This document shows positions 8,518 through 27,783 of a stretch of DNA of 33,750 nucleotides, piece by piece. The notes beneath the pieces were generated by a model. The model made no database searches. It saw only the letters and a program-made list of their open reading frames with translations, and was not told the origin of the DNA. The stretch spans positions 1 through 33,750 of the forward strand of contig JAQBYN010000031.1 of assembly GCA_027622715.1 (NCBI GenBank). The letters run 5' to 3'. Numbering within the stretch: position 1 is the stretch's first letter; every line of letters begins with the position of its first letter. The stretch comes from Pseudomonadota bacterium (GTDB lineage Bacteria; Pseudomonadota; Alphaproteobacteria; SHVP01). The position numbers were made by a program, and so were the translations under genes.

Positions 8518-10145
8518 CGTTCGTCTGACTTTTCGCGGTAGGCCCGCAGCGCTGCGGGCGTATCGACATCGACAAAAATGGCCTCGTCCTCCAGCGCCAC
8601 CTCGCACACCGCCTCTCGGTGCGCGCCGATCAGGTGACGCGCCCCGACATCCCCTGATAGGGCGGCAATTTCGTCGAAATAGGCCCGGCCCCACAACACC
8701 GGGTTGCCGCGTTTCCCCCGCGTAGTGGGGACGCATATGCTGCGCCCCTCGACCGGATTGAACCCGGCAATCAGCCGGTCGATATGGGCGGGCGAAACGG
8801 CGGGCATATCACCCAACAGCACGATGGCCCCGTCTGATTCGACCGGCACCCCGGCGATCCCTGCTTTCAGCGATGCGCTCAGACCCTCGGCATAGTGCGG
8901 ACTGTCGGTGAACGTAACGCCGGCATCGGCCAAAGCCGCGCGCACCGATTGGCTTTGATGCCCTAGGACAACCAAAACATCGGTCGCCTGGCTTTCCCTG
9001 GCATGGGCGACCACCCGGCGCACCATGGCCTCGCCGTCGACTGTTTCCAGCAATTTGTTGGTGGGGCCCATGCGACTGGACTGTCCCGCGGCCAAGACGA
9101 TCGCGGTAATCCGGGGCACCCGCGGCGCGGCGTCGGTCGATCCGGGTTCGCGCAATTGTGGGCGCGATGGGATCTCTTTGAGCAGGCCGCCGACGCCCAT
9201 CGCCTGGATCGAGGCTGCGTCCACCGGCACCCCGGCGAACAACCGCCACAGCACCCAGTCCACCCCATTTAGTTTGGGCGAGCGCGCGCAGCCGGGTAGG
9301 CCGACTACCGGCGTGCCGCCGACATGGGCGGTCAGGATCAAATTGCCGGGATCAACGGGCATGCCGAAATGCTCAATGGCGCCGCCCGCCGCGACGATGC
9401 CGGCCGGTACCACGTCGCGCCGATCGACAATGGCCGACGCGCCGTAAATCAGGATCGGGGCGCAACCGTCTTGCAGCAACGTGCGCACCGCTTCGCCAAT
9501 AGCCGTCTCGTCGTGGGCGCAGCGTTGTTCGGCAATTAGGGTACTGCCAAGACGTTCCAGCCGGTCGCGCACCACGCCTGCGGTCTTGTCGAGCACGCTG
9601 TCCTTGGTGCCGCTCAATGTCGTCATCACCAGCCCAACCCGGTGGGTCTGGATCGGCGCCAGACGAACCAGCGGGGTATCCTCGCTCGCGATGGCGATGC
9701 ACGTGTCCACGGCATCACGCGGCGCGGCAAAGGGGATAATTTTCACCGTGGCCAACAGCTGCCCCTTGGTCACGTGATCGAACGGCGCCAGGGTTGCCAT
9801 GGTGATTGACTCGTCAACCCGGTTCAGGCGGTCGATGCGTTCACGGTCGATCAGCACCACGCCACCGGCATCGGCGTAGAGGTTGCACCGGCCCGTAAAG
9901 GCCGCGCTGGTTTTGGTGTGGTCACCGCGCGCGGCCTCGGCGACCGCCGCTGCCGCAACGTCCTCGGGCACGTCGTCGGTTTCAAAGCGGGCCGCTAAAA
10001 CCGAGTCGATGCCCGCGTCGGCCAATGCCGCGGTGTCGGTCGCCGACAACCGGCGCCCTTTCTTGAATGTGGTGCCGGCGAAACGAATGCTATGCGCCAA
10101 GATACAGTCCTGGGCGTCGGCAACGGGGGTGGGGCCGAAGATCAT
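8514..10145 (-). CDS. Molybdopterin-binding / MobA-like nucleotidyltransferase fusion (MocA-type)
   Basis: A 543-residue two-domain protein. Residues 1-340 form a MoeA/MoaB-like molybdopterin-binding part (TLSGTKDS at 177-183, PILIYGASAIVDRRDVVPAG, GLPGCARSPKLNG). Residues 345-543 form a MobA-like NTP transferase with LAAGQSSRMGPTNKLLE (351-367), LLGDMPAVSP (443-452) and GKRGNPVLW (477-485). MocA-type domains attach CMP to molybdopterin to give the cytosine dinucleotide cofactor used by xanthine oxidase/CO dehydrogenase-type enzymes. The start is the ATG at 10145, one base after the XdhC stop (TGACATG); the frame is open beyond but overlaps that gene. It is the last gene of the Cox-type operon, fitting a cofactor-maturation role. 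The C-terminal half is very secure, the N-terminal assignment good. Confidence 0.88.
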   Translation of the reverse strand: MIFGPTPVADAQDCILAHSIRFAGTTFKKGRRLSATDTAALADAGIDSVLAARFETDDVPEDVAAAAVAEAARGDHTKTSAAFTGRCNLYADAGGVVLIDRERIDRLNRVDESITMATLAPFDHVTKGQLLATVKIIPFAAPRDAVDTCIAIASEDTPLVRLAPIQTHRVGLVMTTLSGTKDSVLDKTAGVVRDRLERLGSTLIAEQRCAHDETAIGEAVRTLLQDGCAPILIYGASAIVDRRDVVPAGIVAAGGAIEHFGMPVDPGNLILTAHVGGTPVVGLPGCARSPKLNGVDWVLWRLFAGVPVDAASIQAMGVGGLLKEIPSRPQLREPGSTDAAPRVPRITAIVLAAGQSSRMGPTNKLLETVDGEAMVRRVVAHARESQATDVLVVLGHQSQSVRAALADAGVTFTDSPHYAEGLSASLKAGIAGVPVESDGAIVLLGDMPAVSPAHIDRLIAGFNPVEGRSICVPTTRGKRGNPVLWGRAYFDEIAALSGDVGARHLIGAHREAVCEVALEDEAIFVDVDTPAALRAYREKSDER

Positions 10146-10146
10146 G

Positions 10147-10830
10147 TCACGCCGGCGATTGGCGCAGGCGCTCGGTGATTTGCGCGAGGACTGCGACCGC
10201 AATTTCCGCCGGCGACTTGGCGCCGATTGCCAGACCAACGGGGCCGCAGATGCGGGCGACGTCGTTGTCGCCAAAGCCTGCCTCGCCGAGTCGGTGGAGC
10301 CGCGCGCTATGGGTCTTCTTGCTGCCCAACGCGCCGATATAAAAAGCAGCTGAGCGCAAGGCCACCTCCAACGCTGGATCGTCGATCTTGGGATCGTGGG
10401 TCAAGGTGACGATGGCTGTGCGGGCGTCTGGCGACAACGCCGTCATCGCATCGTCGGGCCATTCGGTGATCACCGTCACTCCGGGGAAGCGCTCCTCGCT
10501 GGCAAACGCCGCGCGCGGATCGATTACCGTCACATCGTAGCCGGTCATCGCCGCCATCCGCGCCAAGGGTTGGGCAATGTGGACCGCGCCGACGATAATC
10601 AAGCGCAGCGGTGGGTTGTAAACGTTCAAGAATACCTTGGCGCCGATTGTCTCGACCACGCCGCTCTTGTCGCGGCGCGCGGCGTCCTCGGCCTCTTTCT
10701 TCAAACGATCGTCGCCGGCCTCGAACGGATAGATCAGCCATTCTTCGCCGCTTGCGAGATCGGTCGCCAGGACGACCGCGCGCTTTGCGGCCTGATCGGC
10801 CAAAACCTGCTGGAGCGTCGCGTCCTTCAT
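10147..10830 (-). CDS. XdhC family protein, NAD-binding-domain half (CoxI/CoxF-like)
   Basis: A 227-residue protein holding the C-terminal Rossmann domain of XdhC, with LIIVGAVHIAQPLARMA (77-93, usual form GAGHVAxAL) and TVIDPRAAFASEERF (101-115), then a conserved YIGALGSKKTHSARL and GPVGLAIGAKSPAEIAVAV near the end. XdhC proteins bind molybdenum cofactor, promote its sulfuration and deliver it to xanthine-oxidase-family enzymes. The ATG at 10830 overlaps the stop of the upstream small XdhC gene (ATGA), indicating translational coupling; an alternative in-frame upstream start would lie inside that gene. His84 replaces neither glycine of the phosphate loop, but the A for G at 82 is mildly unusual. 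Confidence 0.9.
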   Translation of the reverse strand: MKDATLQQVLADQAAKRAVVLATDLASGEEWLIYPFEAGDDRLKKEAEDAARRDKSGVVETIGAKVFLNVYNPPLRLIIVGAVHIAQPLARMAAMTGYDVTVIDPRAAFASEERFPGVTVITEWPDDAMTALSPDARTAIVTLTHDPKIDDPALEVALRSAAFYIGALGSKKTHSARLHRLGEAGFGDNDVARICGPVGLAIGAKSPAEIAVAVLAQITERLRQSPA

Positions 10831-11150
10831 GCAACCCGTTCGACGAAGACTTGCACCTTGCCGCCGCACGCCAGGCCAACTTCCCAGGCTTGCTCGTTGG
10901 TTACCCCGAAATCGAGCAGGCGGGTTTTGCCGTCTTTGATTGCCGCCAACCCCTGCTCGACCACCGCGCCCTCGATGCAGCCGCCTGAAACCGAGCCGAC
11001 AAACTTGCCGCTATCGTCGACGACAAGCTGCGAGCCGACCGGGCGGGGCGATGATCCCCAGGTCGTCACCACAGTGGCCAAGGCGACGCCCTTGCCCGCG
11101 CCGCGCCAAGCCGCGGCTTGTTCGAGAACGTTGTCCAGATCCGCGGTCAT
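10827..11150 (-). CDS. XdhC/CoxI family protein, N-terminal domain only
   Basis: A 107-residue protein consisting only of the small XdhC_CoxI domain. Seen are ATVVTTWGSSPRPVGSQLVV and GSVSGGCIEGAV, both family hallmarks, with the invariant Gly-Gly-Cys. In many bacteria this domain is fused to the Rossmann domain encoded by the next gene; here they are separate, as in several cox clusters. It overlaps its neighbours by four bases at each end (ATGA on both sides). It probably acts with the downstream protein in sulfuration or insertion of the molybdenum cofactor. Confidence 0.9.
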   Translation of the reverse strand: MTADLDNVLEQAAAWRGAGKGVALATVVTTWGSSPRPVGSQLVVDDSGKFVGSVSGGCIEGAVVEQGLAAIKDGKTRLLDFGVTNEQAWEVGLACGGKVQVFVERVA

Positions 11151-12364
11151 GCGACGGCTCCCCAGGTGGTAGCGGTGGCTTCTTCAGTGCGCGGCCAAGC
11201 CCGGCTCAGCGAGCCGGTCAGGTCGGCGATACTCTCAAGATTGTGAATCGAACGGAATTCGTCAACATGGGGCAGGATTTGGCGGGCGCCGGCCGCCTTG
11301 GCTTCGTACTTTTCGTAGCGCAGCAGCGGGTTAAGCCACAGCAGACGGCGGCAAGATTTATGCAACCGTTCCATTTCAAACCCCAGGTGTTCCGTGCCTT
11401 CGCGGTCCAGCCCGTCGGTAATCAGCAGGACCAGCGCGCCCTGGCCCAATACCCGGCGCGACCAATGGGTATTGAAATCGCGCATGCAGCCGCTAATCCG
11501 CGTGCCGCCGGACCAATCCTGCACGCCCTCGCTGACATCGCCCAGCGCAACGTCCACGTCCTTCTGGCGAAGGTAACGTGTGATGTTGGTCAGACGCGTA
11601 CCGAAGACAAAGGTCGAAACCCGGTCGCGGTCGTTGGTCACCGCATGCATGAAATGCAAAAACATCCGTGAATAGCGGCTCATCGAACCCGAGATATCGC
11701 ACAACACCACAAGCGGTGGATGGCGCTGGATCCGGCTCCGCCGACGCAGCGGAATGATCCCGCCGCCTGAGCGCAGACTGGCGCGGATAGTCGCGCGCAT
11801 GTCGATCCGCCGCCCGCCTTGGTCGGCCCGGAAACGCCGCGTCTTGACGTCGACAATCGGCAGCCGCATCCCCGCAATGGCTTTCTTCGCCTGGGCAATT
11901 TCCTCAGCTGACATCGATTCGAAATCGCGCGTTTTTAAGTCCTCTTGGGCCGAAAATGTAAACGCTGCGTCGAACTGCGTTTCTTCTTCCAGGGGCTGCT
12001 CCGGTTGGGTGTTCTTGTCGGTCGGAAACAGCGCATCGGCGAGGCGACGGTTGGCTTCGCGCGCCGGCGGCGGCGCCTCGTTCTCGGCGCCGAACGTGGG
12101 CAACAACATCGCCATCGCGCGCTCGAGAATGCGCGGGTTGCGCCAAAAAATATGAAAGGCCTGATCGAACAAGTCGCGCTGGTCGCGGCGGTTCACAAAA
12201 ACCGCGTGTAGCGCCCAATACAGGTCCTCGCGGCCGGCGATGCCGGCGGCTTCGACCGCGCGCACCGCTTCGATAACGCGCCCTGGCCCGAGCGGCAGGC
12301 CTGCCGCGCGCAGGACGCGGCCAAAATGCATGATGTTGTCGGGGAGGCGGCCGGTGTCAGCCAT
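11147..12364 (-). CDS. CoxE-like VWA-domain protein
   Basis: A 405-residue protein with a C-terminal von Willebrand A domain. The metal-site motif DISGSMS is at 223-229, followed by the conserved FVFGTRLTNITRYLR, GGTRIS and LLITDGLDR stretches. The N-terminal half is helical and acidic in the middle (about 95-150). CoxE proteins partner with MoxR-type CoxD ATPases to build or activate the Cu/Mo or Mo active site of CO dehydrogenase-type enzymes. The ATG at 12364 is preferred to an in-frame TTG one codon earlier. It lies 6 bases after coxD-like and overlaps the XdhC gene by four bases. Confidence 0.92.
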   Translation of the reverse strand: MADTGRLPDNIMHFGRVLRAAGLPLGPGRVIEAVRAVEAAGIAGREDLYWALHAVFVNRRDQRDLFDQAFHIFWRNPRILERAMAMLLPTFGAENEAPPPAREANRRLADALFPTDKNTQPEQPLEEETQFDAAFTFSAQEDLKTRDFESMSAEEIAQAKKAIAGMRLPIVDVKTRRFRADQGGRRIDMRATIRASLRSGGGIIPLRRRSRIQRHPPLVVLCDISGSMSRYSRMFLHFMHAVTNDRDRVSTFVFGTRLTNITRYLRQKDVDVALGDVSEGVQDWSGGTRISGCMRDFNTHWSRRVLGQGALVLLITDGLDREGTEHLGFEMERLHKSCRRLLWLNPLLRYEKYEAKAAGARQILPHVDEFRSIHNLESIADLTGSLSRAWPRTEEATATTWGAVA

Positions 12365-12370
12365 CAACGC

Positions 12371-13297
12371 TCAGCGCGCCGCTGCGAGTTCCGCGTTCAC
12401 TTGGTCGAGAAGCTTCGCGGCCTCACTGCCTTGGATCTTGGCGATGTCATCTTGGTATTTCAGGAGTACGCCCAGCGTGTCGTTCACCGTTTGCGGGTCC
12501 AGCGCCAGTTTATCGAGTTGTACCAGGGCGGACGCCCAGTCGATCGTCTCGGCAACGCCGGGCAGCTTGAACAAGTCTTGCTCGCGCAGCGACTGCACGA
12601 AGGCAACGACCTCGCGGCTCAAGCGCTCCCCTGCGCCCGGTACTTTGAGCGTCAGGATGGCGAGCTCACGCGCCGCGTCGGGATAGCCGATCCAGTGATA
12701 ATAGCAACGCCGCTTTAGCGCATCGTGAACCTCACGCGTTCGGTTCGACGTGATGATGACAATGGGTGGGTGTTCGGCCTTGATGGTTTCGAATTCCGGG
12801 ATCGTCACCTGAAAGTCGGATAGCAATTCCAGTAAATAGGCCTCGAACGGCTCGTCGGTACGGTCCAACTCGTCGATCAGCAGAACCGGCGGTCCCGCGA
12901 TGTCGGGTTCCAGTGCCTGGAGCAGGGGCCGCTTGATCAAAAACCGCTCCGAGAAAATATCCGTCGCCAGTTGCTGGCGGTCGCTGACGCCTTCGGCCTC
13001 GGCAAGCCGAATTTCGATCATTTGCGCCGGGTAATTCCACTCGTATACCGCCGAGGCGACATCGAGGCCCTCGTAGCACTGCAGGCGCACCAACCGTCGC
13101 GACAAGGTACGGGCGAGCACGTTGGCGATTTCGGTTTTGCCAACGCCGGCGTCGCCCTCAAGAAACAGCGGGCGGCCCAATTTGAGACTGAGAAACAGGG
13201 TCGTCGCCAGCGCGCGGTCGGCGACATAATCGCCGCCATTCAGTAGGTCGAGCGTCGCATCGATCGACGCAGGCAATTCGCGCATGGCAGGGGTCAT
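12371..13297 (-). CDS. CoxD-like MoxR-family AAA+ ATPase
   Basis: A 308-residue AAA+ protein. Walker A is GDAGVGKT (48-55), Walker B VLLIDELD (138-145), and the sensor stretch PPIVIITSNRTREV follows. MoxR ATPases work with VWA proteins as metal-centre chaperones; CoxD is required for maturation of the molybdenum site in CO dehydrogenase. The CoxE-like VWA gene follows after 6 bases, which is the standard arrangement. The start is the first ATG at 13297; another ATG four codons later cannot be excluded since no strong ribosome site precedes either. The gap of 68 bases to the CoxM-like gene is where a large-subunit gene is often found in other clusters; none is present. Confidence 0.93.
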   Translation of the reverse strand: MTPAMRELPASIDATLDLLNGGDYVADRALATTLFLSLKLGRPLFLEGDAGVGKTEIANVLARTLSRRLVRLQCYEGLDVASAVYEWNYPAQMIEIRLAEAEGVSDRQQLATDIFSERFLIKRPLLQALEPDIAGPPVLLIDELDRTDEPFEAYLLELLSDFQVTIPEFETIKAEHPPIVIITSNRTREVHDALKRRCYYHWIGYPDAARELAILTLKVPGAGERLSREVVAFVQSLREQDLFKLPGVAETIDWASALVQLDKLALDPQTVNDTLGVLLKYQDDIAKIQGSEAAKLLDQVNAELAAAR

Positions 13298-13365
13298 CCG
13301 CTAAGGGTAGGGGGGCAAGGCCGGCTCAACAAGTGGTGCCTGCCGCCCCGGTGATCGAGCGTCGG

Positions 13366-14157
13366 TTAGGCAGCCGCGACGGCGCGCTTGGCCATCACCC
13401 CGACCAGATGGGCGCGGTATTCGGCACTGCCATGAATGTCCGAATTCAACCCGTCCGATGGGATCGTAATGTTCGCCACCGACTCGGCGGCGAACTTGGC
13501 GCCGAGTGCCTTTTCCATTGCCGGCACACGGAACGCACATGGTCCCGCCCCGGTCACGCCAACGCGAATACCAGAATCGGTTTCGGCGACCATCACACCC
13601 ACCATCGCGTAGCGCGATGCCGGCTGTGGAAACTTTTGGTAGGCCGCCCGTTTCGGAATGGGGAACGATACCGAGACGATCAACTCGTCATCGGCCAAAG
13701 CCGTCTCGAACAGGCCCTTGAAATAGTCGTCCGCGGCAATGTCACGCTTGTTGGTCTTGATGGTTGCGCCGAGGCCGATCACGGCGGCCGGATAGTCTGC
13801 CGACGGGTCGCTATTGGCGATCGAGCCGCCGATTGTCCCGCGATGGCGCACCATCGGATCGCCGATCTGGCCGGCGAGGTCGCTCAGCGCCGGAATGGCT
13901 TTCTGCACGTCCTTGGAGGAATGCACTTCCCAATGGGTCGTCATCGCCCCGATCGTGACGGTTTTGCCATCCACCTTGATCCCTTTAAGGGCAGCGATGC
14001 CGGACAAATCGATCAGGTCGCTGGGCGAGGCCAAACGCTGTTTCATTGTCGGCAGCAATGTCATGCCGCCCGCGAGAATTTTGCCATCGTCGGCGCTCGC
14101 GAGTTTCTTCATGGCGTCTTCGACGCTACTGGCCTTGTGATATTCGAACTGATACAT
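13366..14157 (-). CDS. FAD-binding medium subunit of a xanthine oxidase/CO dehydrogenase-family enzyme (CoxM-like)
   Basis: A 263-residue FAD subunit. The two flavin-binding motifs are AGGMTLLP (29-36, usual AGGQSLLP) and TIGGSIANSDPSADYP (108-123). The C-terminal CO-dehydrogenase flavoprotein domain follows from about residue 160. It passes electrons from the 2Fe-2S subunit to an acceptor. The ATG has GGAGG seven bases upstream, and the iron-sulfur gene ends 13 bases before. The protein could belong to any three-subunit molybdenum hydroxylase; the motifs alone do not mark it as an aerobic CO dehydrogenase. Confidence 0.92.
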   Translation of the reverse strand: MYQFEYHKASSVEDAMKKLASADDGKILAGGMTLLPTMKQRLASPSDLIDLSGIAALKGIKVDGKTVTIGAMTTHWEVHSSKDVQKAIPALSDLAGQIGDPMVRHRGTIGGSIANSDPSADYPAAVIGLGATIKTNKRDIAADDYFKGLFETALADDELIVSVSFPIPKRAAYQKFPQPASRYAMVGVMVAETDSGIRVGVTGAGPCAFRVPAMEKALGAKFAAESVANITIPSDGLNSDIHGSAEYRAHLVGVMAKRAVAAA

Positions 14158-14170
14158 GGCTGCCTCCGGC

Positions 14171-14626
14171 CTAGACTTCTGCGTTCATGATGGCCTTGAC
14201 GATGTTGTGGTAACCCGTGCAGCGACAGATGTTGCCTTCAAGTTCGTGCCGGACGGTTTTCTCATCGGCCTTCGGATGGCGGCGGCGGATGTCGATCCCG
14301 GCCATCACCATGCCTGGGGTGCAAAATCCGCACTGCAGCCCGTGGTGTTCCTTGAACGCGGCCTGCATGGGATGGAGTTTGCCGTCTTTGGCCAAGCCTT
14401 CGATGGTCACGATGTCCGCGCCCTCGGCCTGAACTGCCAACATTGTGCAGGACTTCATGGCCTGACCGTCGACGTGCACGGTACAGGCGCCGCACTGCGT
14501 GGTGTCACAACCAACATGGGTGCCAGTTAGGCGCAGGTGTTCGCGGATGAACTCGACCAGGAGCGTCCGCGGCTCGACATCGGCGCTGACGGCCTTGCCG
14601 TTAACGGTCATTGAAACTTTGCCCAC
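14171..14626 (-). CDS. 2Fe-2S small subunit of a xanthine oxidase/CO dehydrogenase-family enzyme (CoxS-like)
   Basis: A 151-residue protein with two [2Fe-2S] clusters. Cys40, Cys45, Cys48 and Cys60 form the plant-ferredoxin-type site ([13 protein letters not shown]), and Cys99, Cys102, Cys134 and Cys136 the helical site (QCGFCTPGM and CRCTGYHNI). All eight ligands are intact. It relays electrons from the molybdenum centre to the FAD subunit. The GTG at 14626 is chosen because GGGAGG lies 6-7 bases upstream; an ATG five codons in lacks such a site. It is followed directly by the FAD subunit. The partner large subunit is not in the window. Confidence 0.94.
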
Positions 14627-14775: not shown

Positions 14776-15378
14776 TCATAAAACGCTGAACAGCAGGAGT
14801 ACAACCGCAACAACCGCGACCAGCCCCACGATCCAAGTCGCCGTGCTGATAGTCTTGGACGGTTTGACCTCTTCGTGGTTGATCTTGATCCCCGCTCCGT
14901 CGGCGGCCGGCTGTTCACTTGTGTCGGATCTCGCTGCCGCGCCGCCCACATGGGCGGCGAAATTGGAGAAAAACTCGTCGGCGATTTTCTTGGCCGCGCC
15001 GTCGACCAGCCGGGCGCCAATCTGAGCCAACTTTCCCCCAACTTGAGCATTGGCCTCATAGCGCAAGATCGTGTCGGTGCCGTCTTCTTCAAGTGAAACG
15101 GTGGCGCCGCCCTTGCCGAACCCTGCCGGGCCGCCCTGGCCCTCGCCCGAGATACGGTAGCTGTTGGGCGGGTTGAGGTCTGACAGCGTGACTTTGCCTT
15201 TGAACCGGGCGCTCACCGGGCCGACCTTGGCCTTCACCGTCGCTGTCATTTCGGTGTCTGACGTCTTCTCGATGGTCTCGCACCCCGGGATGCAGGTCTT
15301 CAACGTCTCTGGGTCGTTGAGCGCTTCCCACACGGCCTGTTTGGTCGCGGGAATCCGATATTCGCCCTTCATATCCAT
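14776..15378 (-). CDS. CoxG-family SRPBCC protein with C-terminal membrane anchor
   Basis: A 200-residue protein. Residues 1-145 form a CoxG-type SRPBCC domain (GEYRIPATKQAVWEALNDPE, LKTCIPGCE, FKGKVTLSDLNPPNSY, GGKLAQIGARLVDGAAK). A polar linker (about 148-175) leads to a single hydrophobic segment (about 180-199) at the very C-terminus. CoxG helps recruit the CO dehydrogenase complex to the cytoplasmic membrane in aerobic carboxidotrophs, and the tail seen here fits such an anchor. It is the first gene of the minus-strand Cox-type operon, 149 bases before the iron-sulfur gene, and is divergent from the Panacea-like gene. An in-frame ATG two codons later is an alternative start. Confidence 0.88.
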   Translation of the reverse strand: MDMKGEYRIPATKQAVWEALNDPETLKTCIPGCETIEKTSDTEMTATVKAKVGPVSARFKGKVTLSDLNPPNSYRISGEGQGGPAGFGKGGATVSLEEDGTDTILRYEANAQVGGKLAQIGARLVDGAAKKIADEFFSNFAAHVGGAAARSDTSEQPAADGAGIKINHEEVKPSKTISTATWIVGLVAVVAVVLLLFSVL

Positions 15379-15460
15379 GTGGAATTCGCCTGTTATGCAT
15401 TCGTTAATCGTTGCCTGGGAACCTAGTGATCGGGTCCACGCGGGGCAAGGCCCGGATGTT

Positions 15461-15488
15461 TTGCCAGCACCCGTCCCCGCGGTCTAAA
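15461..15488 (+). promoter_or_regulatory. Candidate sigma70-type promoter for the Panacea-like gene
   Basis: TTGCCA (15461-15466, five of six to TTGACA) and TCTAAA (15483-15488, four of six to TATAAT) are separated by 16 bases and end 33 bases before the chosen start codon. This is a consensus match only. Confidence 0.35.
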
Positions 15489-15521
15489 GTTCCTACAGAT
15501 CGAGAACGAAACCGGAAAACG

Positions 15522-16208
15522 ATGGTGATCCCGCAGCCCCCCGCCGCCCGATCCACGCTCGACATTGCGTGGTGGTTCCAAGCTCGTTGCGAATCCGCGG
15601 GCGAGGCGCTGTCGCATATCCGCATCCATTTCCTGCTCTATCTCACCCACGCCCATTACGCCGCTGAACATCGCGGCCGCAAGATCATGCCGGCGACGTT
15701 TCTTGCGACGCAAGCTGGCCCGATCGAACCGAATATTCACCAGCTATTTGACGGTGATCGCTTCGCCGTTGAGGCCCATGATCCTCCCCGCCCAGTCGAG
15801 GACTATTTGATCGAGATTTGGTCCCGCTTCGGCAAAAAGACGGTGAAGCAGCTTGAGGCGCTGATCGAGCGTGACGGCGCGTGGCGTCCCGTTCTGCGCA
15901 AAGGGGCGTTGCTCGAAATTCCTGTAGAACTGCTCTACCGGGCCTATGGCGGCGGCGCCGATGCGGTTCCCCTCGACAAACGGTCGAGCGCTGGACAGAA
16001 CCGCAACAAGGAACAGGAATATTGGACGCTGACCGGCAAGAAGGCTGAACAATGGGTCCCCGGTCTATCCGGTGGCCCGGCGCGGCCGACTCCGCAGCGA
16101 GTGGCGCAGACTAAAGCGTCGAGTGGCGGCGTGCGGCGTGTCCTCTCACCCGAAGAAGCAGCCCAACGCAGCAAACGCGCTGTGCCGAGTAAACCGCCCA
16201 CGCGTTGA
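15522..16208 (+). CDS. Panacea (DUF4065)-like protein
   Basis: A 228-residue protein. Residues 25-125 resemble the Panacea/DUF4065 (SocA/GepA-like) fold: a leading helix IRIHFLLYLTHAHYAA (34-49), then the AGPIEPNIHQLF motif (65-76, usual form W-xxGPVxxxLY) and later FGKKTVKQLEAL ending in DGAW (118-121). Panacea domains serve as antitoxins to many unrelated toxins, and some are prophage proteins. A basic, Ser/Pro/Gln-rich tail covers about 155-228. The start at 15522 is chosen over upstream in-frame codons because a promoter-like sequence lies between. Its TGA shares the A with the ATG of the next gene (TGATG), so the two are translationally coupled. The family call is by eye and moderate. 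Confidence 0.6.
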   Translation: MVIPQPPAARSTLDIAWWFQARCESAGEALSHIRIHFLLYLTHAHYAAEHRGRKIMPATFLATQAGPIEPNIHQLFDGDRFAVEAHDPPRPVEDYLIEIWSRFGKKTVKQLEALIERDGAWRPVLRKGALLEIPVELLYRAYGGGADAVPLDKRSSAGQNRNKEQEYWTLTGKKAEQWVPGLSGGPARPTPQRVAQTKASSGGVRRVLSPEEAAQRSKRAVPSKPPTR

Positions 16209-17089
16209 TGGCGCGCACCCTACGGATCCGTGCCCTCAAGGTTCCGCCCTCGATTATTCTCGCCCGCGCCGCGCAAGACCCGCGGCTCGCCGATTCATTC
16301 TCCGATGTTTCATTCGCGACCTGGCCCGATGCGAAAGCGATGCGCGCTGATCTCGATGCCGGCGCGGTCGATCTGTGCATCATCCCGACCAATGTTGCCG
16401 CCGCGCTCTATAACGCCGGCACCCCGATCCGGCTGCTGTGCGTCAACGTGTGGGGCATCCTGCACGTGATGTCGCACGCCCCGATAACCGGTGGGTGGTC
16501 GGCGTTGCGCGGGAAGAGAATCGCGGTGCCGCTAAAGGGCAACATGCCCGACACGATTTTTTCCACGCTCGCGGCCCGCGCCGGACTCGATTTATCGGCT
16601 GATGTTCAAGTTGTGTATTGCGACTCATACCTCGCGGCGCAGGACGCGGTGCTGACCGGCGCGTGCGACGCTGCCGTCCTTCCCGAACCGGTGGCCAGTT
16701 CTGCTGCGGCACTGGGCGGGTTTCGGGCGCTCGATCTCCAACAAGAATGGGCCACGCTGACGGGTCGCGCACCGCGTTTTCCCCAGGCCGGCACGGTCAT
16801 CCCGCAGGATTTTTCGAGCGCCGATGCGGCATCAATCCTCGCCGTGATGGACGATGCCCTAGGCTGGATGGTTGCCAACCCCGACGCGGCCGGCGCGCTC
16901 GGCGCGCCGCTGCTCGGCTTGGCCGCGCCGATCATTGCCGACTCGTTGCGGGCGACGACTTGGATGTCGATGGACGCTGCCGCTGCGCGCGAGGATCTCG
17001 AATATTTCTACGGCGTCTTGACGGCGACATCGCCCGCGTTGGTCGATGGCGGGTTGCCGGACGCGGGTTTTTACAGCGCGCATTCCTAG
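16208..17089 (+). CDS. Leaderless substrate-binding-protein-fold protein (NMT1/NrtA-like)
   Basis: A 293-residue protein resembling NitT/TauT-type ABC transporter substrate-binding proteins: RADLDAGAVDLCIIPTNVAA, ALRGKRIAVPLKGNMPDTIF, and AAQDAVLTGACDAAVLPEPVA match the usual pattern of lobe and hinge segments. It has no N-terminal signal peptide; residues 1-25 are charged and polar. No permease or ATPase gene is adjacent. It may therefore be a cytoplasmic enzyme or sensor built on this fold, as MqnA, MqnD and THI5 are, or a binding protein that lost export. No THI5-type cysteine cluster is seen. It starts inside the stop of the Panacea-like gene and its stop overlaps the convergent antiporter gene by four bases (CTAG). 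Confidence 0.65.
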   Translation: MARTLRIRALKVPPSIILARAAQDPRLADSFSDVSFATWPDAKAMRADLDAGAVDLCIIPTNVAAALYNAGTPIRLLCVNVWGILHVMSHAPITGGWSALRGKRIAVPLKGNMPDTIFSTLAARAGLDLSADVQVVYCDSYLAAQDAVLTGACDAAVLPEPVASSAAALGGFRALDLQQEWATLTGRAPRFPQAGTVIPQDFSSADAASILAVMDDALGWMVANPDAAGALGAPLLGLAAPIIADSLRATTWMSMDAAAAREDLEYFYGVLTATSPALVDGGLPDAGFYSAHS

Positions 17090-18774
17090 CTAAAGTTAAA
17101 GACGAGAAACGCCGCTAGAATCACCAATACCCAAAAGACAGTTCGGCCGGTCGGCAACGTTCGCGCGAGCAAGCCGGCAGGCCCGTGATAGTGGGCCATC
17201 GAGTCGATGATCGATCCGACTTGGGCCCGCGTTCCGCCCAACACACCGTCGCTCAACTCGCGCAGATCGCGCGCGATCCAGGCGATGACGGCAGGCGCCG
17301 CGCGGCGGTACAGCCAGTCCACATCCAGGCTGACGGTCAACGTCCGTTTCATCAGCGGCAGCAAAAGGAAAAAAGCGAGCCCCGAGAACAGCAACAGCTG
17401 CAACTGTCCGACGACATGGGCGCCGGTATAGGGCACGAACGCGACCGGCGCCGGCAACAGCGCGTAAAGCGGTTGCGGGAAAACCCCGATCAATAGGCAC
17501 AGCGCCGCGAAGAAAATCATCGCTGCACGCATATTCCACGGCGGATCAGGCGGCCGCAGGCCAGAGTCTTTTTGGAAGAAGACAAACCAGGGAAATTTGA
17601 TCCCGGCATGCAGGAAAACGCCGGCCGATGCCGCCGTCAGCAACAGCCACACCACCATCATATGTTGGTCGGCCGCACTTTGATTGATCATCGACTTACT
17701 GATGAACCCGGACGTCAACGGGAACGCCGAGATCGCCAGCGCCCCAATAATCCCGCACGTCGCGGTGATCGGCATGCTCTGGAACAACCCGCCTAGATCG
17801 GAGCATTTTCGCTTGCCGGTCATATAGAGGACCGAGCCCGCCGACATCAACAAAAGTCCCTTGTAGATAATGTGGGCGAAGGCGTGCGCGGCGGCGCCGT
17901 TTAACGCCATCTCGGTGCCGATTCCGATACCCACCACCATAAAGCCGACTTGGTTGACGATGCTGTAGGCCAGGATACGGCGCATGTCGTTTTCCAACAG
18001 CGCGTAAATGATCCCGTAGAAGATCATGAACAGGCCGACATAGATCAGCGCCTGGGTGCCCGGGAACCCGACCAGGAGGACGAACACGGCCGTCTTGGTC
18101 GTGAAGGCCGAGAGAAAAACCATGCCGGCGGGGGAGGCCTCCGGGTAGGCATCCGGAATCCACGATGACAGCGGCCACGCGCCGGCGTTGATTAGGAATC
18201 CGGCCAGGATCAACCAGCGTGGCCAGGCATCCGCTTGCATCACGTCGAAAGTGATCGAGCCCGTCGCCTCGATATGCCCGATCAGGCCGATCATCAGCAC
18301 GATGCCGCCGAAGAAATGGATCAGGGCGTAGCGCAGGCCCGCGCGCCGCGCCGCATCGCTGCTGCCGTTCCACACCACCATGGTCGAGCCGATCGCCATG
18401 ATCTCCCAAAAAACAAACAGGGTGATGAGGTCGCCGGCGAACACCACGCCGATCGCGCTACCCGCGTAAAGGAAGGCTGCGGCCATCTCTGATGGACGCG
18501 CGCTACGCAGAGCGAATAGTGCGCCGCCAAAGGCCATGATGCTGAAGACGGTCGCAAACAGCATGCCCGTCGGGGCATAACGTACCGGCGACACGGCGTA
18601 GCCCATGAACGGCGCGGACCACACGGTTCCAGCGTCGATACCGGTGCCCCAGATCAGCGCCAAGGTCAGGACCGGTAGGGCGAGAACGAGCCCTTTGCGG
18701 ATCGTGGGTCCGACAAACGGTATCGCCACCGCACCGGCAATCAGAATCAGGCCCGGCGGCAGCCCGCTAATCAT
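17086..18774 (-). CDS. Mrp-type antiporter D-like subunit, third copy
   Basis: A 562-residue polytopic membrane protein of the NuoL/M/N-MrpD proton-channel family. Signature positions are Glu124 in LFVFWEIMAIG (the conserved Glu of helix 5), Lys in AFTTKTAVFVLL, and His plus Lys in HAFAHIIYKGLLLMSAG, with LTSGFISKSM corresponding to the discontinuous-helix segment. It is the longest of three such subunits in the operon; about 70 extra residues at the C-terminus include an amphipathic stretch (around 490-535) and a final hydrophobic helix. It is the last gene of the operon and overlaps the 78-residue membrane protein gene by eight bases. Role: proton or cation translocation within an Mrp-like complex in the cytoplasmic membrane. 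Confidence 0.88.
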   Translation of the reverse strand: MISGLPPGLILIAGAVAIPFVGPTIRKGLVLALPVLTLALIWGTGIDAGTVWSAPFMGYAVSPVRYAPTGMLFATVFSIMAFGGALFALRSARPSEMAAAFLYAGSAIGVVFAGDLITLFVFWEIMAIGSTMVVWNGSSDAARRAGLRYALIHFFGGIVLMIGLIGHIEATGSITFDVMQADAWPRWLILAGFLINAGAWPLSSWIPDAYPEASPAGMVFLSAFTTKTAVFVLLVGFPGTQALIYVGLFMIFYGIIYALLENDMRRILAYSIVNQVGFMVVGIGIGTEMALNGAAAHAFAHIIYKGLLLMSAGSVLYMTGKRKCSDLGGLFQSMPITATCGIIGALAISAFPLTSGFISKSMINQSAADQHMMVVWLLLTAASAGVFLHAGIKFPWFVFFQKDSGLRPPDPPWNMRAAMIFFAALCLLIGVFPQPLYALLPAPVAFVPYTGAHVVGQLQLLLFSGLAFFLLLPLMKRTLTVSLDVDWLYRRAAPAVIAWIARDLRELSDGVLGGTRAQVGSIIDSMAHYHGPAGLLARTLPTGRTVFWVLVILAAFLVFNFS

Positions 18775-19003
18775 AGTAGGTGTCCTTGCGCTTGATGACG
18801 GCGCCCAAGATTTTGGCGCCGATCACCATCACCGCGCAGGTTCCCAGGCCGTACCAGGCGCCAAAGCCGAATGTCTCGTCGATATGAAATTCGCCGTGGA
18901 TCTCGATACCGAGTTGCAGCAGCACGGTCACGGCAAGGACGCCCAGCATGACGATCCACAACAGCCGGATCGTCTTGGGTCTGACCAACCAGTGTTTTTC
19001 CAT
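18767..19003 (-). CDS. Small two-helix membrane protein of the antiporter operon
   Basis: A 78-residue protein. Two hydrophobic segments (about 13-31 and 46-65) are linked by an acidic loop IEIHGEFHIDETFGFG, and the C-terminus is a short charged tail KRKDTYYD. It starts at the ATG at 19003 that overlaps the stop of the upstream D-like gene (TGATG) and itself overlaps the downstream D-like gene by eight bases, so it is clearly translated as part of the operon. I do not recognise a named Mrp subunit. An accessory subunit holding adjacent D-like channels together is possible. The longer open frame upstream (to 19348) is the shadow of the D-like gene. Confidence 0.8.
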   Translation of the reverse strand: MEKHWLVRPKTIRLLWIVMLGVLAVTVLLQLGIEIHGEFHIDETFGFGAWYGLGTCAVMVIGAKILGAVIKRKDTYYD

Positions 19004-20466
19004 CAGATGCCTCCCACGATTTGTGACGCGAAGCGCACAATGGGTTGGGAAAAGAAGAACATCAGAAATGTCAGCGTCACCGACGCGCCAAGCGCCAACA
19101 AAATGGGGCGCGGCGCCTCGCCGTGTGTCGGTGGGCCGGTTTCCTCGGGCGCCTGGAAAAATGCTGTGTAGACCACGGGCAACAGATACGCGGCACTGAG
19201 CAGAGTGCTCACGATCAATACGCCGGCCATCACCGGCTGCTCGGCCTGCAGCACGCCGAGCAAGATGTACCATTTGCTGACAAAGCCGCCGGTTGGCGGC
19301 AGGCCGATGATCGAAATCGCGCCGATGGTGAAGGCGGTCATGGTCCACGGCATGGATCGGCCGATCCCACGCAACTGGCTAACGGTCGTTTTGTTGGCCG
19401 CGACGTAGATCGCCCCGGCACAAAAGAACAATGTGATTTTGCCAAAGGCGTGCGAAGCAATGTGCAACGCGCCGCCGACGATTCCGGCGGAATTGGCAAG
19501 CATCGCGGCCAGTACAATATAGGAAAGTTGACCGACCGTGGAGTAGGCGAGGCGGCGCTTCAGGTTGTCCTGGCGCAACGCGATGATTGACGCGATTAAG
19601 ATGGTCGCAGCGGCAACCCACAGAAAAAAGCCCGTGGACGGCGTCGCGGCTAGGAAATCGACGCCAAAAATGTAGACCGTCACTTTTAGAATCGAGAACA
19701 CGCCCGCCTTCACCACGGCAACGGCATGCAACAACGCGCTGACCGGCGTCGGTGCGACCATGGCGGCCGGCAGCCAACGGTGGAACGGCATCACCCCGGC
19801 TTTGCCGATGCCGAAAACAAACAGCGCCAGCAGCGCCGCGATCAGCACAGGATCGGTCTGGCCACTGAACACGCCGCCGGGGGTGAACGCGACGGTGCCG
19901 GCCTCATGCCACACCCACAACACTCCGAACAGAAAAAATCCGATCGACGTCGTCAGCAACACGCCAAGATAGGTGCGGCCGCCCTTGCGCGCTTCGTCGT
20001 TGTTATGGTGGGTAACCAACGGGTAGGTCGATAGCGATAGCGCCTCGTAAAAGATGAACAGCGAGATCAGATTGCCCGAATAGGCGACCCCCATCGTGCT
20101 GGTGAGCGCGATAGCGAAAAACGTGTAAAAGCGGGTTTGTTTCGCTTCGTGTTTGCCGCGCATATAGCCGATGGCATAGACCGACGTCACGATCCACAGC
20201 CCGCTCGCCACCAATCCGAAGATAACGCCGAGCGGTTCGGCGCCAAGCAGGATTGGCGCCCCCGGAATGAAGTCTGCGAGGATAAATTCGGGCCGCGCGC
20301 CAGCCAGGACATCGGCTGCCAACGCGATGTTTAGGGCGAACAACACCACGGCCGTCAGCAGCGTCGCGGCCTCGCGCACATTGGGCGACCGGTCCAACAG
20401 CGAGATCACTGCGGCGCCGGCAAGCGGTACCGCCAGCGTCAACACCATCAACGTTTCGGGCGTCAT
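19003..20466 (-). CDS. Mrp-type antiporter D-like subunit, second copy
   Basis: A 487-residue polytopic protein of the MrpD/NuoN family. Features are Glu141 in LFIFYEALSLSTY, Lys in LHAVAVVKAGVFSILK, RRLAYSTVGQLSY and HIASHAFGKITLFFCAG, then GLPPTGGFVSKWY. It acts as a proton/cation half-channel of the complex. It starts one base after the stop of the first D-like gene and overlaps the small membrane protein gene at its end. It is distinct enough from the first and third copies that recent tandem duplication is unlikely. Confidence 0.9.
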   Translation of the reverse strand: MTPETLMVLTLAVPLAGAAVISLLDRSPNVREAATLLTAVVLFALNIALAADVLAGARPEFILADFIPGAPILLGAEPLGVIFGLVASGLWIVTSVYAIGYMRGKHEAKQTRFYTFFAIALTSTMGVAYSGNLISLFIFYEALSLSTYPLVTHHNNDEARKGGRTYLGVLLTTSIGFFLFGVLWVWHEAGTVAFTPGGVFSGQTDPVLIAALLALFVFGIGKAGVMPFHRWLPAAMVAPTPVSALLHAVAVVKAGVFSILKVTVYIFGVDFLAATPSTGFFLWVAAATILIASIIALRQDNLKRRLAYSTVGQLSYIVLAAMLANSAGIVGGALHIASHAFGKITLFFCAGAIYVAANKTTVSQLRGIGRSMPWTMTAFTIGAISIIGLPPTGGFVSKWYILLGVLQAEQPVMAGVLIVSTLLSAAYLLPVVYTAFFQAPEETGPPTHGEAPRPILLALGASVTLTFLMFFFSQPIVRFASQIVGGI

Positions 20467-20467
20467 C

Positions 20468-21943
20468 TCAGCCGCCGCCCATCAACTGGATCGCCGCTTG
20501 TTCGGCAAAGCCCAACGACAACGAGGTTTCGATGCCGAAATAGACGCACGCGCCCGTCAGTACCCAGGTTGGTACCAGCAAGGCCAACGGCGGATCGGAC
20601 AGCGGCGGGGCGTCGGCAGGCGCATCGCGGAAATAGGCAATCTCAACAACGCGCCAGACATAAACCGCCGCCAACAATGACGTGGCCAGGATCACGGCCG
20701 CGACCGGCCACCAACCCTTTTCCATCGCCCCCAGCACAAGATACCACTTGCTGATGAATCCGGCCGTCAGCGGCACCCCGATCAGGCTGAGACCGGCAAT
20801 CACAAACGCCGCCATCGTCAGCGGCATCCGTTTGCCCAACCCCGCGAAACTCTCGAGCCGACAGGCGCCCGCCGCGTAGGCAACGCAGCCCATGACGAGG
20901 AACAGGGCGCCTTTGGTCACCGCGTGGTTGAAAATATGGACGATCGACGCGGTCAGGCCGGTGACGTTGGCGTAGCTGATCCCCAAGATGATGTAACCGA
21001 TTTGCGCGACGCTGGAATAGGCGAGGAGGCGCTTCACGTCGCTCTGAAAGATCGCGACGAACGACGCGATAATGACGCCGGCAAGGGCGAGGGTCAGCAG
21101 AACCTCTGACGCGGGCACGATATTGAACACGAACTCGGCGCCGAAAACCGTGTAGCCGAAACGCAATAGCAGATAGATCGCCACTTTGGTGGCGGTCGCG
21201 GCAAGAAACGCGGTAACCACCGACGGCGCGTAGGTGTAGGCGTTGGGCAGCCACAGATGCAGCGGGAACAACGCGAGCTTCAACAAGATGCCCACTGAGA
21301 TGAAGGCAAACGCCGCCAGCACCGTGCGGCTTTGGTATAGCGGCGGCAGACGCTCGGCGAGGTCGGCCATGTTCAGCGTGCCGGTGACGGCGTAGATCAG
21401 CCCAACCCCGATCAAGAAAAACGTGGCGCCAACCGTACCCATGACCAAATACGTGAACGCCGCCGACAAGGCGCGCCGGTCGCGGCCCATCGCAATCATC
21501 GCGTAAGACGACAACGAGGAAATTTCGATAAACACAAACACGTTAAACGCGTCGCCGGTAATCGCCATGCCAAGCAGGCCGGTGAGCATCAGCAAAAAGC
21601 CGCTGTAGAACAGGTAGTGCCGGTCCTGCGGTATCTCCTTGGCGACACTCTTGTAGGCAAACGGCAACACGGCGCTGCTTGTCCCGGCAACCAGTAGCAG
21701 CATGAACGCGTTGAGCGTATCGATGCGGTATTCGATCCCCAGCGGCGCGAGCCAGCCGCCGAGCGCGTAGCTAATAATCTCGCCGTCGGCAACTTGGCTG
21801 AGCAACGTTGCCGCCATCGCCAGCGCGGCCCAACTCACCAGCAGCGCAATCAGCCAGGGCAGCGCGCCGCGCCGCAATATAATGCACAGTGGTGCACCCA
21901 GCAGTGGGATAACGACCTGAAGGGCAGGGAATTGCGCGATCAT
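20468..21943 (-). CDS. mrpD: Mrp-type antiporter subunit D, first copy
   Basis: A 491-residue polytopic protein, the closest of the three to standard MrpD by position directly after subunit C. Key residues are Glu140 in VFVFIEISSLSSYAM, Lys in ATATKVAIYLLLR, RLLAYSSVAQIGY and HIFNHAVTKGALFLV, with GVPLTAGFISKWYL after. MrpD forms the main ion path together with MrpA in Mrp Na+/H+ antiporters. It overlaps the subunit C gene by four bases (ATGA). Confidence 0.9.
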   Translation of the reverse strand: MIAQFPALQVVIPLLGAPLCIILRRGALPWLIALLVSWAALAMAATLLSQVADGEIISYALGGWLAPLGIEYRIDTLNAFMLLLVAGTSSAVLPFAYKSVAKEIPQDRHYLFYSGFLLMLTGLLGMAITGDAFNVFVFIEISSLSSYAMIAMGRDRRALSAAFTYLVMGTVGATFFLIGVGLIYAVTGTLNMADLAERLPPLYQSRTVLAAFAFISVGILLKLALFPLHLWLPNAYTYAPSVVTAFLAATATKVAIYLLLRFGYTVFGAEFVFNIVPASEVLLTLALAGVIIASFVAIFQSDVKRLLAYSSVAQIGYIILGISYANVTGLTASIVHIFNHAVTKGALFLVMGCVAYAAGACRLESFAGLGKRMPLTMAAFVIAGLSLIGVPLTAGFISKWYLVLGAMEKGWWPVAAVILATSLLAAVYVWRVVEIAYFRDAPADAPPLSDPPLALLVPTWVLTGACVYFGIETSLSLGFAEQAAIQLMGGG

Positions 21944-22293
21944 GGTTCACGGTCCATGTCGGCAATTTCGTTTTCCTCGATGGTGCTGTAGCTCTCGTGA
22001 ATCCGTACCACCAAGGCCAGGCCAAGCGCCGTCGTCGCGACGCCGACCACAATGGCGGTCAGGATCAGAACGTGTGGCAGCGGGTTGGAGTAGACCGTGA
22101 TCCCCTCGGCGATGATCGGTGCCGATCCACCGGTCACTTTGCCCAACGTGATGAATAGCAAGAACACTGAGGCCTGAAAGATGTTCAGGCCGACGATCTT
22201 CTTAATCAGGTTGCCGCGGGCGATCAGCGCGTAGAAACCGATCATCATCAGTACGACGACGACCCAGTAATTGAAATGCCCCAGAACCTCCAT
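21940..22293 (-). CDS. mrpC: Mrp-type antiporter subunit C (NuoK-like)
   Basis: A 117-residue protein with three transmembrane helices and the NuoK/MrpC pattern: GFYALIARGNLIKKIVGLNI, a glycine-poor middle loop, then NPLPHVLILTAIVVGVATTALGLALVVRI. A short acidic tail follows. It starts two bases after subunit B and overlaps subunit D. In the complex it lies beside subunit D and continues the polar path through the membrane. Confidence 0.92.
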   Translation of the reverse strand: MEVLGHFNYWVVVVLMMIGFYALIARGNLIKKIVGLNIFQASVFLLFITLGKVTGGSAPIIAEGITVYSNPLPHVLILTAIVVGVATTALGLALVVRIHESYSTIEENEIADMDREP

Positions 22294-22295
22294 GT

Positions 22296-22712
22296 TCAGC
22301 GCAGCCGACCGGCAAAGGTCATGAAGATGGTCATCATCACCGCGGCAACGGTGATACCGACGCCGAGTTCGACCAAGAGAATGCCGAGGTGCTGCCCGTC
22401 GTGGTCGACCGCGCTCAACACGTCATAGTCGAGGTAGTTAGCACCAAGAATCTGCGACACAACGCCGACCCCGCCATAGAGGAGGACGCCAACCGCAATG
22501 AACGCGGTAACGATCTGCGGGGGTGCCACCTTGCGCAGATTCTCTAGTCCAAACACCAGTCCGTACAAGATGAATCCAGCGCCAAAGATTACGCCCGCCT
22601 GAAAGCCGCCGCCGGGCCCGTAGTCGCCGTGGAACTGGACATAAAGCGCAAACAACAGGATGCCGGGTATCGTCAGTTTCGCGATCACGCGCGGAATGAG
22701 ATGGTGTTTCAT
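22296..22712 (-). CDS. mrpB: Mrp-type antiporter subunit B (MnhB domain)
   Basis: A 138-residue protein with four hydrophobic helices and the MnhB hallmark FHGDYGPGGGFQAGVIF in the first periplasmic loop, then a G-V-L-L-Y-G-G helix and a conserved LLVELGVGITVAAVMM. It overlaps the upstream MbhD/E-like gene by four bases (ATGA) and precedes subunit C by two. The length is normal for stand-alone MrpB. Confidence 0.93.
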   Translation of the reverse strand: MKHHLIPRVIAKLTIPGILLFALYVQFHGDYGPGGGFQAGVIFGAGFILYGLVFGLENLRKVAPPQIVTAFIAVGVLLYGGVGVVSQILGANYLDYDVLSAVDHDGQHLGILLVELGVGITVAAVMMTIFMTFAGRLR

Positions 22713-23284
22713 GAGGCGCCCCCGCCGCCGGAGTTGGGTTCGTCGGGGTCACGGCGTCGCCGTCCCAAGCCGCCCGACAGCAACAGCAACACGCCGATCC
22801 CGGCCGTGAAGATCACCGTCACTTCGCCCAACGTGTCATAGCCGCGGTAGCTCGCCAGCACCGCCGTGACGATGTTGGGCGCGCCGGTCTCGTGTTCGCC
22901 TTCAGCCAGGTATGCCGGCGCCACATGGAGGTGAATTGGGGCGTTCGGGTCGCCGAATGCTGGTAGGTCCCAGGTCCCGTAGATCAGCAATCCGCCCGTG
23001 ACCAAAACTGTGACCAACGGCAGCAGCGGTGTGGTCACGGGAATTTTCTCGCGGTTCTTGGTCAGGGCGAGCACCCCCAACATCAGTACGGTCGAAATTC
23101 CGGCGCCGACGGCGGCCTCGGTGAACGCGACATCAACCGCATCCAAAAGCACGAAAATGCACGCCATTAGCAGGCTGTAGATGCCCGACAGCATGACCAC
23201 GGCAAATAGATTGCGCAGGCGAATGATGGCGATTCCCACCACTGCCAGCAGCACCAAAAGCACGATGTCGATGGCAAGGATCAC
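22709..23284 (-). CDS. MbhD/MbhE-like fused subunit (DUF4040; equivalent to MrpA C-terminus)
   Basis: A 191-residue membrane protein. The first 85 residues form an MbhD/DUF4040 unit (LRNLFAVVMLSGIYSLLMA, DVAFTEAAVGAGISTVLML). The second half is an MbhE-like unit with APNIVTAVLASYRGYDTLGE followed by a hydrophobic helix and a Gly/Arg-rich tail. In bacterial Mrp systems both units are usually the C-terminal part of the large MrpA. The GTG at 23284 is chosen because it overlaps the subunit G stop (GTGA) and the longer open frame upstream only shadows subunit G. No MrpA N-terminal domain is found here. Confidence 0.87.
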   Translation of the reverse strand: MILAIDIVLLVLLAVVGIAIIRLRNLFAVVMLSGIYSLLMACIFVLLDAVDVAFTEAAVGAGISTVLMLGVLALTKNREKIPVTTPLLPLVTVLVTGGLLIYGTWDLPAFGDPNAPIHLHVAPAYLAEGEHETGAPNIVTAVLASYRGYDTLGEVTVIFTAGIGVLLLLSGGLGRRRRDPDEPNSGGGGAS

Positions 23285-23607
23285 GGGGTCTGCTTCTCTT
23301 TGTCGCGCGCCCACGGTTTTAGCCCGCTGGCCAATGCCGCCCGGGCCAGCGCATGCGTTGCCGTCGGGCTGGTGAAAAACAAGAAGATCACGATGAAAAT
23401 CAGCTTCACGACGACCTGCCAACTTTCGGCTTGAAGCATGAAGCCGACCAGTAGCATCCATGCGCCCAGCGTGTCGGTAATGCCGGCGGCGTGGAGGCGC
23501 GTGTAAAAGTCGGGAAAACGCAGCAACCCGATCGCGCCCACGACGCTGAAGCCTGCGCCACCCAGGATCAGCACCCAACTGAGAACGTCGAGGATCGTGT
23601 CGATCAT
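23281..23607 (-). CDS. mrpG: Mrp-type antiporter subunit G
   Basis: A 108-residue protein with three helices and the subunit G motif GAIGLLRFPDFYTRLHAAG, then TDTLGAWMLLVG. A charged tail ends the protein. It overlaps subunit F by four bases at its start and the MbhD/E-like gene at its end. Confidence 0.93.
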   Translation of the reverse strand: MIDTILDVLSWVLILGGAGFSVVGAIGLLRFPDFYTRLHAAGITDTLGAWMLLVGFMLQAESWQVVVKLIFIVIFLFFTSPTATHALARAALASGLKPWARDKEKQTP

Positions 23608-23879
23608 TTGGTGCCGCCCTGCGACGAAACGAACTCGCCGTATTGGGTGTAGCGCATGACGGCTATCACGGCGATGAAGTTCATCAACGCGTAAATCAAC
23701 GCGATATCGAGAAACTCGGGGCGGTCGGCCAAAAACCCGAGCACGGCAATCAAAAGGGTGGTTTTTGTCCCCACCATGTTGGCCGCCAAGATGCGATCAA
23801 AGGTCGTGGGACCGAGCAACGCGCGCAGCAAGGCGAATGTCATCGTCACGATGATGCCGATTGCGGCGGCGGCGAACAT
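23604..23879 (-). CDS. mrpF: Mrp-type antiporter subunit F
   Basis: A 91-residue, three-helix protein with the subunit F pattern RALLGPTTFDRILAANMVGT, then LDIALIYALMNFIAVIAVMRY. Its ATG overlaps the stop of subunit E (TGATG) and its stop overlaps subunit G. The length is usual for the family. Confidence 0.93.
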   Translation of the reverse strand: MFAAAAIGIIVTMTFALLRALLGPTTFDRILAANMVGTKTTLLIAVLGFLADRPEFLDIALIYALMNFIAVIAVMRYTQYGEFVSSQGGTK

Positions 23880-24352
23880 CAGCCGGTCATCCGTGTAGTG
23901 CGGCGCGCCATCTCGCCGCTCGTCAGATCATCGGCGGCGGCGGCGGTTAACGCATGGACGAGAATGCGACCGTCATCCAACATACGCACCGACACAGTGC
24001 CGGGGGTCAATGTGATTGCGTTGGCGTAGGTGACGCGGCCAACGTCGTCGGCCTGCGGGGCGTCGACCTCGATCATCCGCGGGTCGATGTCTAATCGCGG
24101 CGCCAGAATGGCGCGCGCCACAGCGATATTCGACATTACGATTTGCCAACCGAGCCACAGCCAGTAGAGCGGCGCAGCCCACACCATCTTGACCGGATGG
24201 CCTTCGTGATCGACGACATCCATGCGCCGCGCGATCCACACCACGAGCACGACCGAAGCGGCGCCGAAAGATAAGATCAAAGGCGTGTAGTGCCCCGACA
24301 GGAGCAGCCAGATCGCCGCGAGAAAGACGCCCAGACTTAACGCGCGACCCAC
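23879..24352 (-). CDS. mrpE: Mrp-type antiporter subunit E
   Basis: A 157-residue protein with two N-terminal hydrophobic segments and a C-terminal cytoplasmic domain containing ITLTPGTVSVRMLDDGRILV, the subunit E hallmark. I choose the GTG at 24352 because GGGGGA lies about six bases upstream and the protein then starts right at the first helix. The frame is open to 24463 but that part looks non-coding. It is the first gene of the antiporter operon, so the operon promoter should lie in 24353-24631. Confidence 0.85.
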   Translation of the reverse strand: MGRALSLGVFLAAIWLLLSGHYTPLILSFGAASVVLVVWIARRMDVVDHEGHPVKMVWAAPLYWLWLGWQIVMSNIAVARAILAPRLDIDPRMIEVDAPQADDVGRVTYANAITLTPGTVSVRMLDDGRILVHALTAAAADDLTSGEMARRTTRMTG

Positions 24353-24465
24353 GCTTATTCCCCCACAACCAGTACCCACAGCCCAAACGCGACGTGGGCG
24401 GCAGCCCGCCGTGGCACCCGGTCTATGTACCCGAGTCGCCCAACGAGCCCGTCCGTCAATCACTA

Positions 24466-24477: not shown

Positions 24478-24631
24478 ATAACTCTGCAAGTAATCGAAAC
24501 AAATGAATAAAGCGGGCTCCAGGACGCTGTGGCTTGGCCCTTTTGGAGACTCCCGGAATCCGGTTACAATACCGCAGAGTTGAAGGGGCGAACTTTGCGC
24601 CCGGCTTGGTTTGATTTGACAGGGCCTAGTG

Positions 24632-26088: not shown

Positions 26089-26101
26089 GGCTGGGTCTCC
26101 C

Positions 26102-27639: not shown

Positions 27640-27645
27640 AGCGCG

Positions 27646-27722: not shown

Positions 27723-27732
27723 TGATCAAGTC

Positions 27733-27761: not shown

Positions 27762-27783
27762 CGTATTTCCGGAGATCGCGCAC

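Follow-up and report, generated by a model that had tools for sequence, protein, structure and literature searches.

The window, a stretch of 33,750 nucleotides of alphaproteobacterial DNA, carries two adjacent genes, here called A and B, between a divergent coxG gene and an antiporter cluster (Table 1). The molybdenum-hydroxylase genes on the coxG side are missing coxL, and coxS and coxM adjoin at 14157–14171 with no coxL between them. coxL is present at the corresponding locus in G004, G006, G007, and several other families. Four coxL-type matches occur elsewhere in the genome of the window, three of them in tandem on contig C21 (26971–34136), and the matches in which the motif was read carry AYRGAGR, which is characteristic of form II. 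Because what form II enzymes act on is, to our knowledge, not settled, the name CO dehydrogenase operon should be avoided for the locus. The Mrp/Mbh-like antiporter cluster is found beside cox genes in several alphaproteobacterial families. The form II naming of coxL follows the published usage (PMC7645674). Two genes farther along the window (24629–25147, 27739–28296), encoding a protein with a double cold-shock domain and a DUF192 protein, are recurrent neighbours of A in the class, including at loci where cox genes are absent.

Table 1. Positions of genes A and B and of the features around them in the window.
Feature	Position	Strand	Remarks
coxS, coxM, coxD, coxE, XdhC-like and MobA-like accessory genes	8514..14626	-	molybdenum hydroxylase; no coxL
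coxG	14776..15378	-	divergent neighbour of A
Intergenic region between coxG (-) and A (+)	15379..15521	.	143 bases, common to both starts
Gene A, Panacea (SocA/DUF4065-like) protein	15522..16208	+	228 aa; domain at residues ~10–143, AGPIEP, disordered linker, C-terminal G-K-x4-W-x-P
TGATG, A stop overlapping B start	16206..16210	+	one base common to TGA (16206–16208) and ATG (16208–16210)
Gene B, leaderless periplasmic-binding-protein fold (SsuA/NMT1 type)	16208..17089	+	293 aa; complete fold, mean pLDDT 91
Mrp/Mbh-like antiporter cluster	17086..24463	-	three Proton_antipo_M subunits; last gene overlaps B stop
ABC importer, including an NMT1-type binding protein of its own	25144–27783		8 kb from the pair, not part of it

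Gene A matches the Pfam family SocA_Panacea (PF13274) with an E-value of 1.4e-4 and 23.2 bits, below the cut-off of 25.7, and the SocA family equivalog model with 23.9 bits, far under its cut-off of 190. Eight of the 12 A family members match SocA_Panacea at E ≤ 0.01 (best E-value, 2.8e-5), a GPI, GPL, or GPV signature is found in all of the 12 aligned members except one, which has GFAEP, and G66 is invariant. The fold of residues ~10–143 is predicted with confidence. This combination of a sub-threshold Pfam match, a family-wide GP[ILV] signature, matches in most members, and a confident fold indicates that A is a diverged Panacea protein, so that the identity given in the original prediction holds. 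No DNA- or RNA-binding output domain is recognizable in A, for which the Pfam search gives Panacea only; a PHROGs search returned two families of unknown function (best match, 44 bits), and the single match to a solved structure is regarded as chance (E 0.19). Most members of the A subfamily end, after a variable linker, in a G[KR]xxxxWxP-like motif, whether or not B is present. The possibility that this motif is a B-binding tag was rejected because A proteins without B carry it too.

The best family model for B is SsuA_fam (43 bits), followed by weak matches to NMT1, Phosphonate-bd, and VitK2_biosynth, the last being the MqnA/MqnD family (E 3.5e-5). Among solved structures, the B profile matches PDB entry 3hn0 alone (E 2e-14); the name of this entry, nitrate transport protein, is the depositors' annotation. 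The open frame of B has only 298 codons and begins MARTLRIRALKVPPS, and B is therefore without a signal peptide. The same is true, judging by eye from the sequences, of all seven B proteins of the order that have a readable start, those of G002 and G004 being cut by contig ends. The short open frame, the family matches, and the complete predicted fold uphold the earlier description of B as a leaderless protein with a substrate-binding fold. Measured against ABC binding proteins of the SsuA/NMT1 type, B has the fold, whereas the export signal and a cognate permease or ATPase are absent.

Residues that are invariant in B and kept by most of its exported relatives are P60, P108, P114, L158-P-E-P161, R173, W181, and P192-Q-A194. 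Several of them appear to sit near strand ends, the expected position of the cleft in such folds, when placed from the predicted secondary structure rather than from model coordinates. These conserved, cleft-type residues suggest that B binds a ligand. A second set, W82, H86, N112, T116, and Y141, is invariant in B but not in the exported relatives; H86, Y141, and the other residues of this set could serve in catalysis or form a new surface.

The stop codon of A and the start codon of B overlap as first described, and the pair is conserved: A and B are adjacent and on one strand in nine of the 10 genomes sampled from the order, many of which are fragmentary and in which genes were called by a simple script. 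The tenth, an incomplete assembly, is without A, B, and the antiporter. In G002 the pair is spread over two contigs, yet B begins right next to A. The two genes join as TGATG in G000 and G002 and as TAGTG in G001; in the remaining six, about 8 to 20 bases separate them. Even at identities as low as 32–38%, and in AT-rich members too, the genes stay adjacent, on one strand, and almost without spacing. Identities of the A and B orthologues are 80 and 76% in G001, and 77 and 72% in G002, with dN of about 0.13–0.21 and dS above 1, near saturation. The existence of orthologues and a dN well under dS, as expected from purifying selection, mark A and B as real genes. B evolves somewhat faster than the neighbouring genes. 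G007 keeps A and B while its downstream genes differ from the antiporter: at this locus (L034, 1–1968), an ATPase gene and a permease-like gene come next after the pair, and by eye they resemble a FetAB/YbbLM-type exporter. As these two genes do not look like a binding-protein-dependent importer, G007 was not accepted as proof of a transporter partner for B.

The distributions of the two genes differ widely. The A profile matches 58 of 385 genomes of the class, in 57 of which A is single-copy. The B profile, run across the same 385 genomes, found the members of the order and one distant relative, G171. When 84,980 species genomes were scanned with short B motifs, which miss distant relatives, members of the group alone were returned; B in leaderless form was found nowhere else in these searches. 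About 45 of the 54 examined A loci are without B. The recurrent neighbours of A, in a survey that was less than exhaustive for small unannotated partners, are genes of the cox, antiporter, cold-shock, or DUF192 kind. coxG lies within about 10 kb in 28 of these 54 loci and is divergently adjacent at 0.5–0.8 kb in 26; the antiporter gene antiA is on the other side of A in 13, and a DUF192 gene is nearby in 19. Outside the order, the divergent coxG–A arrangement is found in nine families of the class. Because A recurs at coxG/antiporter loci, mostly without B, A looks like an old gene of the cox/antiporter locus, and B seems to have been inserted later, on the antiporter side of A. The many loci without B also imply that the basic role of A does not need B. 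Separately, the weaker Panacea proteins of G024 and G268 have no C-terminal WxP motif, are not beside cox genes, and each precede a short gene. These short genes, of 133 and 150 aa (loci L123, 8378–9265, and L043, 9009–9900), have products with no Pfam match, which are possibly undescribed toxin partners.

The likely source of B is seen among its exported relatives. Searched with the B profile, the phylum sample yields ten additional places, spread over nine genomes. Nine exported relatives, including G171, can be aligned with B at about 28–38% identity with motifs in common, and start with leaders that by eye are Tat/Sec-like. Most are adjoined by a permease or ATPase gene, and several by an NnrS gene or a TonB receptor gene. 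In the tree, the B proteins form one group (support 85/99) near G461. NnrS-associated ABC importers include the nearest relatives of B outside the order, with shared motifs, but differ from it in their export-type leaders and in the permease or ATPase genes that mostly accompany them, neither of which B has. The genome of the window carries an NnrS gene but no close copy of the G171-type permease, the best match having 29% identity. On the basis of the exported relatives, the grouping in the tree, and the missing permease, it is most likely that B has lost its leader and its transporter, loss being the probable direction of change. The original prediction had counted the occurrence of the second gene elsewhere with a signal peptide, permease, and ATPase against itself; these distant relatives fit that description, but none is an orthologue within the order. 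It had also described B as having no transporter neighbours, which is incorrect for the window, given its ABC importer, but correct for the pair, from which that importer is separate. B was also rejected as the binding protein of this importer, whose own NMT1 protein scores 245 bits and from which B is distant in the tree.

The original prediction offered three readings: a toxin–antitoxin pair of a new type, a ligand-sensing pair, and a cytoplasmic enzyme accompanied by its regulator. Of these, the ligand-sensing pair is the best supported. We tentatively favour it, at somewhat less than an even chance: A and B may form a cytoplasmic ligand-sensing pair in which B is the sensor and acts with A, by a logic analogous to that of NasS/NasT. 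This preference rests on the co-conserved adjacency, the tight junctions, the missing leader, the complete fold, the shared cleft-type residues, and the lack of a close permease. Counting against it are the roughly 45 A loci without B, the retention of the WxP motif irrespective of B, the lack of a recognizable nucleic-acid-binding output domain in A, and the residues invariant in B alone. AmiC/AmiR is a comparable adjacent pair, in which AmiR carries an ANTAR domain. NasS, which is homologous to the binding proteins of nitrate transport but lacks a leader, keeps NasT bound until nitrate triggers the release of this partner (PMC5424462). A and B resemble NasS/NasT in being two adjacent genes for a leaderless, transport-type binding protein and a cytosolic partner, but NasT also carries an ANTAR domain, whereas A is a Panacea protein without one; the likeness is therefore one of working and not of membership. 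Panacea domains act through protein–protein contact, according to excerpts of two studies (PMC8832971, PMC10440598).

Under the favoured ligand-sensing reading, the ancestor of B would have been the exported substrate-binding protein of an importer of the NnrS-associated ABC family, which lost its signal peptide and its permease and ATPase partners; in the ancestor of the order, its gene would have arrived at the position immediately after A. The cleft would have been retained, and a small, probably anionic, ligand would change the conformation of B, which in turn would switch a putative contact with A. A would be the Panacea-fold adaptor of an older locus, comprising the molybdenum-hydroxylase (coxG/S/M/D/E) and Mrp-like antiporter genes, and, when switched, may tune the expression, assembly, or stability of the products of that locus.

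A possible but doubtful alternative to this sensing pair is that B is a leaderless binding protein that is merely co-translated behind A, with an independent role or none involving A. The predominance of A loci without B is consistent with this, as is the somewhat faster evolution of B than of its neighbours, and, as B was found in one order only, its linkage to A could go back to one founding insertion that has simply been inherited. However, adjacency, strand, and spacing have survived the divergence among members, the AT-rich genomes, and the changed downstream genes of G007, which argues against mere neighbourhood. It is unlikely that B is instead a cytosolic enzyme of the binding-protein fold, as are MqnA/MqnD and THI5, with A as a stabilizing or regulating partner. 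B has the cytosolic location of these proteins, a weak match to the MqnA/MqnD family, and the B-specific invariant residues that such an activity might explain, but its sequence similarity to them is only weak (23.9 bits, under the VitK2_biosynth cut-off of 26), no biosynthetic neighbours are seen, and the closest relatives whose gene surroundings could be read are binding proteins of transporters, not enzymes.

That A neutralizes a toxic B, in the manner of PanAT or through a protease as in SocAB, is highly improbable, mainly because many families have A without B at the same recurring chromosomal locus, and further because B resembles an intact solute-binding protein with conserved cleft motifs and mobile elements yield no matches. 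A shares with PanAT and SocAB the Panacea fold, the GP[ILV] signature, and the overlap with the next gene, the putative antitoxin gene standing first, and Panacea antitoxins pair with many toxin folds, as stated in an excerpt of PMC8832971. It differs in its fixed locus and C-terminal WxP motif, the Panacea proteins that do precede short genes (133 or 150 aa, at L123 and L043) being WxP-less; the regular Panacea–toxin pairing that characterizes PanAT is not seen among the recognized neighbours at the A loci, and a binding-protein fold such as that of B is not among the PanAT toxins named in the excerpted text. No matches to A were found in 50,697 phage and 72,556 plasmid records, nor relatives of B in viral contigs, and a toxin–antitoxin system on a mobile element was rejected on these grounds. 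In PADLOC, A has no match and B one weak match, to DpdE (E 0.0038).

The pair is a new combination of known parts, and literature searches for a locus combining cox with Mrp-antiporter genes, or for an NnrS-type binding protein located in the cytosol, gave no specific description among the records listed. A more far-reaching proposal, which we consider rather unlikely as a whole, is that A represents a non-antitoxin Panacea subfamily, with a core and a GKxxxxWxP motif, that serves the molybdenum-hydroxylase/Mrp-antiporter locus across the Alphaproteobacteria and in one order has been placed under small-molecule control through a former transport protein acting as an intracellular receptor. Panacea domains are readily taken for antitoxins. 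If the proposal is true, the existence of a conserved chromosomal subfamily, present in single copy and linked to a metabolic locus, would suggest that the Panacea fold is also a general adaptor, and would warn against antitoxin labels for such genes. The pair would also add a new case in which an exported binding protein has become a cytoplasmic receptor, here with a partner that resembles neither NasT nor AmiR, and would offer a way into how form II cox-type molybdenum hydroxylases are regulated.
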